The translations under genes and the position numbers were made by a program. From assembly GCA_003838145.1 (NCBI GenBank), contig QYZZ01000127.1, positions 1 through 61,411 of the forward strand: a stretch of 61,411 nt of DNA, in the 5' to 3' direction. The notes under the pieces are model-generated. The model saw nothing but the letters and a program-made list of their open reading frames with translations. It was not told the origin of the DNA and did no database searches. Numbering within the stretch: position 1 is the stretch's first letter; each line of letters starts with the position of its first letter. Positions 18,115 through 24,774 of this stretch are shown here, one piece after another. The DNA is from Tindallia sp. MSAO_Bac2. GTDB lineage: Bacteria; Bacillota; Clostridia; Peptostreptococcales; Tindalliaceae.

Positions 18115-18567
18115 ATGAGTACCGGAAAAAAGGAAAAAAGGTATATTTATCTTAGAGACAATGGTTTATGCCGTTATTGTGGTAAAGCGCTGAAATATCA
18201 TCAAGTTACACTGGATCACTATGTGCCTAAAAGCAAAGGAGGTCCAGATGATTATTTCAATCTTGTTTTATGCTGCAAATACTGTAATCACAGGAAAAAG
18301 AGTATGACTCCTTCTAATTATAAAAACCTTCTGATTAAACAGTTTATAAAAGCAGTAAAAGATGGTATGATAATATCGGGAGTTCCCAAAAGGCCTAAAA
18401 AAGAAGTGGAAGATAATGCAACCAAAGTGGACAGGCTCGAAAAAATTGGCACATTATCTGTATTTCAGAGTACTGAGTATCGTATTTTGGTTAAGGGAAA
18501 TGTGATGTTGAAAATGTCCTGTCTTTCCAGGCGTTGGGAAAAACACATCAAACGGAGGAGGAACAGC
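18115..18567 (+). CDS. HNH endonuclease-like protein, open in frame into the next gene
   Basis: Residues 1-70 hold an HNH/beta-beta-alpha-metal domain: CRYC, LDHYVPKSKGG, an Asn in DYFNLVLCC, and CKYCNHRKK, with two CxxC zinc knuckles. The tail (VFQSTEYRILVKGN) looks like the usual end of such ~130-residue proteins. No stop codon intervenes before the aldolase, so the frame starting at 18115 runs on to 19452. The final residues RRRNS are simply the aldolase ribosome site translated. I place the boundary at the aldolase ATG, but a true fusion or a lost stop codon is possible. Start site AAAGGA precedes the ATG. The nuclease target is unknown. Confidence 0.7.
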
Positions 18568-19452
18568 ATGTTTAAAGGAATTTTCACACCGATTGTTACA
18601 CCCTTTGATGAAACTGAATCAATCGACTATCAAAAACTGCAGTCAAATCTTGTGAAGCTTGGAAAAACTGCATTGGAAGGCCTGGTAGTATTGGGCTCCA
18701 ACGGCGAATTTGCGTATTTGACAGAAAGAGAGAAGCTGGATGTATGCACTTACGTTCTGAAAGAAAAAGCTGATCACCAAAAAGTAATTGTTGGAGCCAG
18801 TCATGAGTCCTTGTATCAATCAATGCGTTTTATTGAAAAAATTCAACCCTTTGAGCCGTCAGCATTATTAGTTTTACCACCACATTATTATAAGGGTAGT
18901 ATGAAAGAAGAAGTGCTATATCAGTATTTTGTAGACGTAGCCGAATTTTCCTCGATACCAATCATGCTCTACAATATGCCGGGTAATACTGGAATTAATA
19001 TGTCTGCATCTCTTGTAGCAAGACTCTCTGAGCATCCAAATATTGTTGGGATTAAGGATACTGCTGGAAACATTGTTCAACTTTCTCAAATCATTTGGGA
19101 TACATCTGATGAATTTTCTGTTTTTGCCGGAAGTGCCAGCTATCTTTTGCCGGCTCTCACAGTTGGTGCGAAAGGTGCAACCCTTGCTTTGGGAAATGTC
19201 ATGGCAGATGAATGCTGCCGGATTCAGGAACTGGTAAATAGCGGCGAATTTATTAAAGCCAGAGAACAGCAATTAAAACTGATTCGAATTAATACGTTGG
19301 TTACTTCCGGTATAGGAGTTCCAGCGCTCAAGTATGCTATGGATCTGGTGGGATACCAGGGAGGAAGATCCAGAAAACCAATGCAGCCTTTGTCGGAACA
19401 GCAAAAAGAACAGGTCAGGAAGGCGCTGATCGAAGCAGGAGCCGATATATAA
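18568..19452 (+). CDS. DHDPS/N-acetylneuraminate lyase-family aldolase, resembling 4-hydroxy-2-oxoglutarate aldolase
   Basis: 294 residues from ATG 18568, which has an excellent CGGAGGAGG ribosome site. It is a class I pyruvate aldolase TIM barrel with Schiff-base Lys163 in GIKDTAG and Tyr135 in YNMPGNTG. The carboxylate loop is GSNGE (43-47) rather than the GTTGE of lysine-pathway dihydrodipicolinate synthase; animal 4-hydroxy-2-oxoglutarate aldolase also has GSNGE. I therefore doubt the dapA label. It lies behind the ilv terminator and downstream of, and in frame with, an HNH domain. Confidence 0.85.
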   Translation: MFKGIFTPIVTPFDETESIDYQKLQSNLVKLGKTALEGLVVLGSNGEFAYLTEREKLDVCTYVLKEKADHQKVIVGASHESLYQSMRFIEKIQPFEPSALLVLPPHYYKGSMKEEVLYQYFVDVAEFSSIPIMLYNMPGNTGINMSASLVARLSEHPNIVGIKDTAGNIVQLSQIIWDTSDEFSVFAGSASYLLPALTVGAKGATLALGNVMADECCRIQELVNSGEFIKAREQQLKLIRINTLVTSGIGVPALKYAMDLVGYQGGRSRKPMQPLSEQQKEQVRKALIEAGADI

Positions 19453-22755: not shown

Positions 22756-22785
22756 TTGACTCGAATCAAAATAATTGGATATACT
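22756..22785 (+). promoter_or_regulatory. Promoter for the UPF0251 / repeat protein / FmdB unit
   Basis: TTGACT (22756-22761), 18 bp, TATACT (22780-22785), 33 bases upstream of the first start codon. Confidence 0.68.
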
Positions 22786-22817: not shown

Positions 22818-23168
22818 ATGGCCAGGCCCAAGAAAAAACGAACAGTATGTTTTGTTCCATCGGTAAGAGAGTTTGGACCTTTAAATCAGGATGCAGATAT
22901 GTTGAATAGTGTAGAAATGAGCATAGAAGAACTGGAGAGTGTACGCCTGATGGACTATGAAAACCTTGGTCAGGAAACGAGTGCGGAGGTTATGGGGGTT
23001 GCCCGATCTACTTTCCAACGGATTTATAATGACGCAAGAAAGAAAATCGCATATAGTTTAGTACAGGGTGCAGTTATTCATATTGAAGGTGGAGAATATC
23101 GTTTATGCGACGATTTTACTGGTGAAGGATATTGTTTTCCGCAGCAAGCTAAGGAAGATGAAAAATGA
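22818..23168 (+). CDS. UPF0251 (DUF134) predicted DNA-binding protein
   Basis: 116 residues. It begins with the family's MARPKKKR..FVPSVREFGP opening and carries a sigma-70 region 4-like helix-turn-helix around residues 30-75 (ELESVRLMDYENLGQETSAEVMGVARSTFQRI). The family is of unknown function and is presumed to regulate transcription. AAAGGAGG precedes the ATG. Its TGA overlaps the ATG of the repeat-protein gene (ATGA at 23165-23168), so the two are translated together. This makes the repeat protein a prime candidate for functional linkage. Confidence 0.92.
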   Translation: MARPKKKRTVCFVPSVREFGPLNQDADMLNSVEMSIEELESVRLMDYENLGQETSAEVMGVARSTFQRIYNDARKKIAYSLVQGAVIHIEGGEYRLCDDFTGEGYCFPQQAKEDEK

Positions 23169-24559
23169 CCACGGGCATAAACTGGAACAACTTATTGAAA
23201 GCATCTAAAATTCATGGTGTCATATACCCTGAGAGTTTTGATCCGGATGAGGTAGCGTTTGCCGGAAAGAATCTTGGCCGCAGTGACTATGAAAGCTATC
23301 TTCATGGCAGTGACTTTAGCCGGGTTGAATCCCTGAGATGGAAGCATATTGCCAGCGCTGAAAACATAGGAGGGATTAAATATCCTGGGAGTTTCGACAT
23401 TGAAAATGCGGACTTTTCCAGAAAGGATATCTCTAAAAGTGACTTTGGACGTGTTAATTATCTGGACTGGAGCATAATCAAAGATGCTTCAGAAATATGG
23501 GGAATAACTTATCCGGAGAGTTTTAAAACAGAAAACCTTGACTGGAACGGAAGATTTATAGCTGGGAGTGATTTTAAATATGTTGAGGAACTTAAATGGA
23601 TTCATTTGCAGTCTGTCTGGGGACTAACGGATTTGGTATATCCGCCGAATTTTGATATTGAAAAAGCAGATTTTAATGAAAAGAATATCAGTGGAAGTGA
23701 CTTTAGCAGGGTAAGTGAGTTGAAATGGGACCAAATATCAAAAACAGAGTTTTTATTCCGAATAATTTTTCCGGAGGAATTTGACATCGAAAATGCGGAT
23801 TTCAATGAAGATATTATGGGAAAACCAAGGGATCTGACAGACTGCGACTTTAGTAGAGTAAGGTGCCTGGAATGGGATCAAATAAAGAATGCAGCTGAGC
23901 ACAGTGGAATTGTATACCCGGAAGCCTTTAATGTCAAAGAAGCCAGTTTTGAAGGCAAAGATATTAGTAGAAGTGACTTTAGTCGTGTGAAACAGCTTTC
24001 CTGGGAAGATATTGAATGGGCTGAAGATGCAAGTGGAATTATTTTTCCTGAAACCTTTGATCCGGAAACAATTAATTCGGAGGGAAGAAACTTTAGCGGC
24101 AACGATTTTAGCAGAGTTAAAGGTTTAAAATGGGAACACATTAAAAATGCCAGATATATGGCAGGTATTGTGTATCCGGAAGATTTTGATATAGAAAATG
24201 CGGACTTTACCGGATTGGATTTGCGATTCTCCGACTTCAGTCGCGTTAAAAGCCTGAAATGGGAACAGATTCAAATGGCAGGAAGTGATCTGAGAGGTAT
24301 TGTTTATCCCTCGGGAATGGATTTAACGAAAGCGGATTTTACCGGCAGGGAAATTGGAGGCAGTGATTTTTCTGGAGTCAAAGGCCTTAGCTGGCATCAG
24401 ATGATTGGTCAGAAAGGATTAAAAAAATTATTACGGATAAAAAAATCCATGAGAGGCATTGTGTACCCATCAGAAATCGATTTGCATCAAATCAATTTTG
24501 AAGGCTACGATATGAGTTACTCTGACTTTTCAGCCTTTACGGCTCCAAAGAAGAAATAA
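23165..24559 (+). CDS. Unrecognised protein of ten 43-residue pentapeptide-like repeats
   Basis: 464 residues, no signal peptide or membrane segment. After 17 residues the protein is built of ten units beginning at residues 18, 70, 113, 156, 199, 248, 291, 334, 378 and 431. Six units (R2-R4, R6, R7 and nearly R8) are 43-44 long. The pattern is GIxYPExFDIEN, then ADFxGxDISxSDFSRV, then KxLKWEQIxxA. The middle 20 residues fit four A(D/N)LXX-type pentapeptides, enough for one turn of a quadrilateral beta-helix. The Trp-containing linker is regular and not part of the classic pentapeptide fold. Insertions occur in units 1, 5 and 9, and unit 10 is cut short. I do not recognise this arrangement. 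It is coupled to a UPF0251 regulator upstream and lies 23 bases before an FmdB zinc ribbon. Confidence 0.9.
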   Translation: MTTGINWNNLLKASKIHGVIYPESFDPDEVAFAGKNLGRSDYESYLHGSDFSRVESLRWKHIASAENIGGIKYPGSFDIENADFSRKDISKSDFGRVNYLDWSIIKDASEIWGITYPESFKTENLDWNGRFIAGSDFKYVEELKWIHLQSVWGLTDLVYPPNFDIEKADFNEKNISGSDFSRVSELKWDQISKTEFLFRIIFPEEFDIENADFNEDIMGKPRDLTDCDFSRVRCLEWDQIKNAAEHSGIVYPEAFNVKEASFEGKDISRSDFSRVKQLSWEDIEWAEDASGIIFPETFDPETINSEGRNFSGNDFSRVKGLKWEHIKNARYMAGIVYPEDFDIENADFTGLDLRFSDFSRVKSLKWEQIQMAGSDLRGIVYPSGMDLTKADFTGREIGGSDFSGVKGLSWHQMIGQKGLKKLLRIKKSMRGIVYPSEIDLHQINFEGYDMSYSDFSAFTAPKKK

Positions 24560-24582: not shown

Positions 24583-24774
24583 ATGCCATTGTATGAATAT
24601 CAGTGCAAACAATGTGAGCACAAATTTGAAAAACTTAAACCAATATCAAAAATAGATGAAAGAGAAAAATGCCCAAAATGTTGCAGTGATAATACTGAGC
24701 GCAGATTATCCGTGTTTGGCGTTGGGAAAAGCGGCTATTGTACTTCGGCAAAATCGGAATCCTGTGGTGGCTGA
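24583..24774 (+). CDS. FmdB-family zinc ribbon protein
   Basis: 63 residues: MPLYEYQCKQCEHKFE opening, then CPKCC near residue 31, giving a CxxC...CxxC zinc ribbon, and a Cys/Gly-rich tail (YCTSAKSESCGG). The family is thought to be regulatory, but its role is mostly unknown. AAGGAGGCAG lies before the ATG. It is third in the operon with the UPF0251 and repeat-protein genes. Confidence 0.92.
   Translation: MPLYEYQCKQCEHKFEKLKPISKIDEREKCPKCCSDNTERRLSVFGVGKSGYCTSAKSESCGG

Follow-up and report, generated by a model that had tools for sequence, protein, structure and literature searches.

The analysed window is a stretch of 61,411 nucleotides from Tindallia sp. MSAO_Bac2 (contig QYZZ01000127.1), a member of an alkaline-lake genus. 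On its forward strand, between a UPF0251/DUF134 gene and a gene for an FmdB-family zinc ribbon, lies a gene for a repeat protein of 464 residues to which an earlier note on this DNA had drawn attention. The features are listed below, with the repeats in the phase of that note; coil B denotes the Trp- and Pro-containing part of the repeat unit and coil A its pentapeptide-like part.

22756..22785, + strand: sigma-70-like promoter match before the DUF134 gene (10/12)
22818..23168, + strand: UPF0251/DUF134 gene (PF02001, E 2.1e-24); its stop codon shares bases with the start codon of the repeat gene (ATGA)
23165..24559, + strand: repeat protein gene, 464 aa, ten predicted two-coil units; ORF open
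23165..23215, + strand: N-terminal residues 1-17, first coil B; W7, L10 and A13 invariant; helix 7-10 in the model
23216..23371, + strand: repeat 1, 52 aa, insertion of 9 residues
23372..23500, + strand: repeat 2, 43 aa
23501..23629, + strand: repeat 3, 43 aa
23630..23758, + strand: repeat 4, 43 aa
23759..23905, + strand: repeat 5, 49 aa, insertion of 6 residues
23906..24034, + strand: repeat 6, 43 aa
24035..24163, + strand: repeat 7, 43 aa
24164..24295, + strand: repeat 8, 44 aa; contains the best PF00805 stretch (residues 344-361)
24296..24454, + strand: repeat 9, 53 aa; insertion with a second helix in the model (residues 418-422)
24455..24556, + strand: repeat 10, consisting of coil A, with a short low-confidence tail after it
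24583..24774, + strand: FmdB-family zinc ribbon gene, downstream (TIGR02605, E 8.2e-17; PF09723, E 1.3e-13)

Seven sigma-70-like sites were found in the stretch scanned against 7.4 expected in shuffles, so the promoter match is weak.

The repeat array and its orthologues

The 43-residue repeat array claimed for this reading frame is real: the residue autocorrelation of the 464-aa protein, 0.261 at lag 43 and 0.220 at lag 86, exceeds that of every shuffle (maximum 0.123; 2000 shuffles, lags 1-119). Moreover, a unit signature composed after the units had been seen, [YF]Pxx[FMIL]...[DN]Fx5LxW, occurs nine times in the window protein and in 0 of 300 shuffles. Ten GIxYP-type starts are found, at residues 18, 70, 113, 156, 199, 248, 291, 334, 378 and 431, with start-to-start spacings of 52, 43, 43, 43, 49, 43, 43, 44 and 53 residues; spacings above 43 are thus four (+9, +6, +1, +10), rather than the three insertions described earlier. 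The count of ten copies agrees with the ten starts, but the tenth copy ends after SDFS, without the Trp element, and residues 5-18 (INWNNLLKASKIHG) resemble that element. Since the original phase misses this N-terminal half-unit (INWNNLLKASKIHG) and leaves the last copy without its Trp element, a shifted phase describes the protein better, namely ten LxWxxIxxAxxxxGIxYPxxFDIENADFxGxDISxSDFSRV units between residues ~5 and 458.

The closest named relative, L001, comes from Tindallia sp. SLLE01000076.1 and is 78% identical in the best segment; a contig scan with single-sequence patterns, the reach of which is limited to close relatives, found one relative. With the protein as query, 6 of 393 genomes of the order, Peptostreptococcales, match, the window's own included, and all belong to the window's family, Tindalliaceae. 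Six of the seven sampled Tindalliaceae genomes carry the repeat protein, the seventh (G056) being 75% complete. A profile of the six sequences matches 7/393 order genomes at E 0.01. The additional match, G316, was considered as a relative (E 8e-4) and rejected, as its 760-aa ORF consists by eye of ordinary pentapeptide runs and lacks the 43-residue unit. In the class sample, two of 391 genomes match, both from the window's genus, and a 43-mer profile matches one of 398 genomes of the phylum, Bacillota, namely the window's own, with eleven matches that all fall inside the repeat gene. The 43-mer alignment (A3) holds 29 of 36 stretches, six of L005 and one of L006 having been left out. The genome sets are overlapping samples, and the whole-genome searches cover the phylum; among the sampled genomes the repeat protein has so far been seen in one family, Tindalliaceae. 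Mobile elements were also considered as a source. For phages, tblastn gave no match. For plasmids it gave two weak ones (23.5% and 22.8% identity) to proteins annotated as pentapeptide proteins; the Nostoc match is a long regular pentapeptide run and the Acaryochloris match a pentapeptide protein by annotation only. An origin from a phage or a plasmid was rejected. A viral-contig scan with the orthologue alignment returned 218 pattern matches and no relative.

The window protein is 60-77% identical to its orthologues, and all six proteins, the window's included, have the ten-unit layout and the insert positions in common, L006 having one unit of 44 residues where the others have 43. Ten tryptophans (7, 59, 102, 145, 188, 237, 280, 323, 366 and 410) and ten prolines (22, 74, 117, 160, 203, 252, 295, 338, 382 and 435) are invariant in the six orthologues. 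In repeats 1-9, with insertions skipped, units at the same position are on average 68% identical between species (minimum 49%) and different units within one protein 41% (maximum 56%). We take this to mean that the array is ancient and fixed, without ongoing expansion. The closest orthologue pair, L004 and L005, is under purifying selection (dN 0.032, dS 0.343, dN/dS 0.094).

Gene neighbourhood

The recurrence of the two neighbours, to which the earlier note had pointed, is partial. UPF0251/DUF134 adjoins the repeat gene in 4/6 loci and FmdB follows it in 4/6, but neither is universal and the DUF134 association is limited to one genus, that of the window. DUF134 lies elsewhere in the other two genomes with the repeat gene and in G056, and in three sister-genus genomes DUF134 occurs but does not adjoin the repeat gene; the adjacent copy may have been acquired at the level of the genus. 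FmdB gave no match at E 0.001 in G004, G016 and G056. With such partial recurrence, the neighbours are not obligate partners, and no firm function follows from them. In all six loci the repeat gene precedes genes that, named by eye, encode a NUDIX hydrolase and a cobalamin adenosyltransferase.

Several further observations concern the surrounding genes. A second DUF134 paralogue (47-48% identity) lies elsewhere in two of the four same-genus genomes (G000:C82:7947-8249, L035; G016:C4:100990-101295, L034). In the window, TypA and DUF134 are separated by a gene for what by eye is a YgeY-like M20-type hydrolase; that gene is absent at the locus in G004 and G016 (L004, L005), and in G056 the best match is 58% and not clearly at the locus. 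In addition, a 445-aa ORF at 18115-19452 of the window joins, by eye, an HNH-like N-terminal part and a dihydrodipicolinate-synthase-like part (MFKGIFTPIVTPF...) in one frame; in L001 the two parts are separate overlapping ORFs (33-443 and 436-1320).

Pentapeptide character and predicted fold

Taken as a whole, the window protein scores 37 bits against PF00805 and passes the gathering cut-off of 20.2 bits (E 2.4e-9). PF00805 is the sole Pfam model above its cut-off for this protein, its best stretch there being confined to 18 residues within a single block. When E values up to 1 are allowed, it matches the window protein and all of its orthologues (6/6). A search with PF00805 of the window's own genome, translated in six frames, gave no match at E 0.001 (0/1), and 9 of 14 control genomes match at the same threshold; without a six-frame match, the whole-protein score appears to have been added up from several blocks. 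The 'blocks of four pentapeptides' proposed earlier are a generous reading. At a fit of at least 4/5 to the published consensus, slots 13-17 and 23-27 conform in 7/9 and 9/9 of repeats 1-9, but slots 18-22 and 8-12 in 3/9 and 1/9, with a hydrophobic centre in 9/9 and 6/9, respectively. Coil A works like a pentapeptide repeat. According to a review (PMC8145042), however, pentapeptide proteins are defined by at least eight contiguous repeats, and in the window protein the longest consecutive 5-mer run is three at 4/5 consensus fit and five if any hydrophobic centre is accepted, which falls short of that definition. Thus, we do not count it among the classical pentapeptide proteins. Hydropathy is nominally periodic at lag 5 (P 0.013), and the half-repeat at lags 20-22 is not significant (P 0.10), so that the two-coil reading described below is without independent sequence support.

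The statement that the 43-residue unit belongs to no named family has held up, in that no Pfam or NCBIfam model was found that describes it. Sequence matches in the PDB are mostly to pentapeptide proteins or designs, and all are weak (best E 0.001). PHROGs returned 12 weak matches (E up to 1), the best of which, of unknown function, has E 1.2e-6. Pfam matches to the tyrosine decarboxylase C-terminus and the PPARgamma N-terminus, below their cut-offs, and weak matches to SRP19 in 2/6 and DUF2760 in 1/6 members were read as chance. Five Qnr-type NCBIfam models match weakly (E 1.9e-4 to 0.13). Together with the Qnr-like blocks and the net negative charge of the window protein (79 D+E, 57 K+R), these matches would fit a DNA mimic that protects gyrase or topoisomerase in the manner of MfpA and Qnr. 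We consider such a role very unlikely, since the best Qnr-type score is 21.3 bits against cut-offs of at least 450, some orthologues have a modest net charge (70 acidic and 59 basic residues in L006), the protein has roughly double the 215-221 positions of the Qnr models, and the model described below has no helix of at least four residues after residue 422 for C-terminal dimerisation.

AlphaFold2, supplied with an alignment of the six orthologous sequences (the window's included), produced a model with a mean pLDDT of 92.4 and a pTM of 0.89, in which 384/464 residues reach at least 90 and residues 1-3 and 462-464 fall below 50. In this model, helical turns occupy unit positions 10-12 and 33-36, and bridges lie at positions 19, 24 and 41 and at position 3 of the next unit, a pattern that is exact in repeats 6 and 7 and slightly departing in others. 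Each unit is predicted to form two stacked coils of about 21.5 residues, coil A being pentapeptide-like and coil B (LxW...GIxYP) of another kind, with a short helix. A single unit modelled alone has the same two helical turns (pLDDT 82) and lacks bridges 19 and 41. What had been taken for a 23-residue 'linker' is probably a coil in its own right, with a helical turn and bridges, stacked between pentapeptide coils. Since this element is itself a stacked coil, the solenoid of the predicted model is continuous, which does not agree with the 'interrupted beta-helix' suggested before.

A rival account is an ordinary pentapeptide beta-helix, an otherwise straight tower at whose corner the Trp element would stick out as a loop or short helix; the PF00805 gathering score, the PF00805 matches of all six orthologues and the weak PDB sequence matches speak for it. 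Furthermore, corner insertions are on record in pentapeptide proteins (PMC8145042), examples being the loops of QnrB1, AlbG and HetL and a 24-residue insertion in Rfr23, and HetL is the sole Foldseek match in the PDB under E 0.001. Nevertheless, we regard this account as rather unlikely. The Trp element is present in every unit and is confidently predicted, with its own helix and bridges, and the six-frame search with PF00805 at E 0.001 found nothing in the protein's own genome. Moreover, the expectation that the protein would not prove an ordinary tower finds some support in the model, which superposes poorly on pentapeptide towers: HetL reaches a TM of 0.14 or less, and pentapeptide proteins among the 50 Foldseek PDB matches listed range from 0.07 to 0.25. 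LRR proteins, which are mixed with pentapeptide proteins in the matches that follow HetL, likewise have TM of no more than 0.25 among the matches listed.

Two further comparisons place LRR proteins first. VIA-align was run on 992 chains from the Foldseek PDB matches, and the best 50 of these (Z 13.2 to 17.7) are LRR proteins by title where stated; the chains without telling titles among them we take to be LRR proteins as well, and pentapeptide-titled chains are absent from the best 50 of 992. FBXL2 ranks first (Z 17.7, 318 residues aligned, 5.0 A), and RipG4 and ribonuclease inhibitors lie near Z 15.5, with rmsd from 3.6 to 15.1 A in the matches listed. The ranking is suggestive only, since 531/992 chains reach Z of at least 8 and Z values for repeat proteins may reflect a common arrangement only. 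In BFVD, among 50 matches listed, the highest TM (0.44/0.43, probability 1.00) is to an LRR protein of a giant virus (Catovirus), and pentapeptide-titled matches have TM of 0.18 or less. The single-unit model in a VIA fold search gave no match at Z of at least 2 (one chain compared). Structure comparison of the model thus leans to LRR arcs over pentapeptide towers, and an arc shape of the solenoid is suggested.

If this resemblance reflected descent, the protein would be a divergent LRR protein of bacterial, BspA or FNIP type, and its pentapeptide-like sequence would be convergent. The VIA-align and BFVD rankings speak for this explanation, as do the FNIP repeats, which are 22 residues long and have Phe and Trp spines (PMC9525666). 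We find it quite improbable, because none of the six orthologous proteins has a Pfam LRR match even with E values of up to 1 allowed, the 11-residue LRR motif LxxLxLxxNxL is absent from five of the six and occurs once, at chance level, in the sixth, and neither the 12-residue form LxxLxLxxCxxL nor the FNIP-type motif hxxhxhxxxFN in 22-residue repeats occurs in any (0/6 each).

Candidate binding face and relation to known solenoids

Unit positions with a between-unit entropy of at least 1.5 (n = 20) were treated as variable. Among these, conservation between orthologues is highest, in descending order, at 22, 21, 43, 41, 35, 42 and 40, and six of these seven fall within 21-22 and 40-43. In repeats 1-8, 38/48 residues at positions 19, 21, 22, 40, 41 and 43 are identical in the six proteins, as opposed to 3/88 invariant residues at positions 6, 7, 11, 12, 16, 29, 30, 32, 34, 37 and 38 (Mann-Whitney P 3e-16), a contrast that is descriptive, since both position sets were picked after conservation had been seen. 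Positions 35, 42, 10, 13, 14 and 3 are in neither set, and positions 19, 6 and 11 lie below the entropy cut-off of 1.5. The conserved stretches surround bridges 19 and 41, which, being 22 residues apart, should line up as a single strip along the protein. The helix position 35, likewise well conserved among orthologues, does not fit the strip and blurs the division.

The strip is unit-specific yet fixed between species, which, at the level of sequence, suggests a dedicated interface for one partner. By contrast, the 'repetitive ligand surface' of the earlier note is not what is seen, since the best-conserved bridge-side positions differ from unit to unit; with such unit-specific positions, a single specific partner looks likelier than a repeating ligand. 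By analogy with pentapeptide and LRR geometry, the strip would be exposed and would line the inner side of the arc. A unit-specific, rather than repetitive, strip also speaks against the idea of an assembly or surface protein that forms filaments by end-to-end stacking or serves as an adhesin or an extracellular layer. In favour of this idea, long solenoids can assemble through their ends, and a secreted pentapeptide protein is reported in PMC12864828. By eye, however, the protein has no evident signal sequence and its neighbours are housekeeping-like, and we hold this to be the least probable of the explanations weighed here.

On balance, we consider it somewhat probable that the protein is a curved, two-coil, pentapeptide-based solenoid that acts as a stoichiometric scaffold for one conserved cellular protein. 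It would be a single-domain solenoid of about 20 coils and, judging by eye from its N-terminus, is probably cytosolic. Each unit would begin with coil B (LxWxxIxxAxxxxGIxYP), which bears a short helix, and continue with coil A (FDIENADFxGxDISxSDFSRV), and the helix-bearing coil between every two pentapeptide coils would bend the tower into an arc like an LRR horseshoe. The partner, one conserved cellular protein, would be held along the bridge face, at unit positions 18-22 and 39-43, and the helix side would be mostly free. We hold the fold reading with moderate confidence and the putative role as a binding scaffold with less. As for classification, the best reading of the model is that of a new solenoid variant, which contains pentapeptide coils but lies outside the definition by eight contiguous repeats. 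We propose more tentatively that the alternation of pentapeptide and Trp-Pro coils, an LRR-like arc bridging the two folds and a unit-specific binding face might together mark a distinct class.

If this is true, a single unbroken solenoid can be built by regular alternation of pentapeptide coils with coils of another kind, and such alternation turns the overall shape from a rod into an arc. It would also provide designers of repeat proteins with a natural two-coil unit of fixed geometry, and would narrow the question of function to one conserved face. The protein would then also be a case in which the label 'pentapeptide repeat', assigned through a profile match, conceals another architecture.

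In the accessible literature on hybrid pentapeptide/LRR solenoids, nothing like the two-coil unit is described, and nothing was found on the repeat protein in that on Tindallia genomes and UPF0251/DUF134. The window protein resembles pentapeptide proteins (PF00805; HetL, QnrB1, MfpA, Alr5209) in that coil A carries ADFxG, xDISG and SDFSR pentapeptides and in that the whole protein lies above the PF00805 cut-off. It differs from them in that pentapeptide coils alternate with non-pentapeptide coils, the longest consensus 5-mer run being three, and its model superposes poorly on the pentapeptide protein structures listed. With LRR proteins (the FNIP/FGxxFN proteins Crov588 and Crov539, FBXL2) it shares, in the predicted model, a coil of ~21.5 residues whose bridges and short helices lie on opposite sides, and LRR proteins give the best structural alignments among the VIA-align and BFVD matches listed. 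A Trp spine, too, is described in Crov539 (PMC9525666). Unlike LRR proteins, the window protein shows the LxxLxLxxNxL motif no more often than chance would give and matches no LRR profile, and its unit would comprise two unlike coils. A third point of reference is the Knotted Solenoid (9RDS), which PMC13123833 describes as a beta-solenoid of one bacterial group, the nearest unknotted relatives of which are pentapeptide proteins. That protein differs in being triangular and knotted and in coming from Gram-negative, often stalked budding bacteria (PMC13123833). The window protein, as a predicted solenoid with pentapeptide-like coils that has so far been seen in one bacterial family, resembles it in the other respects named.
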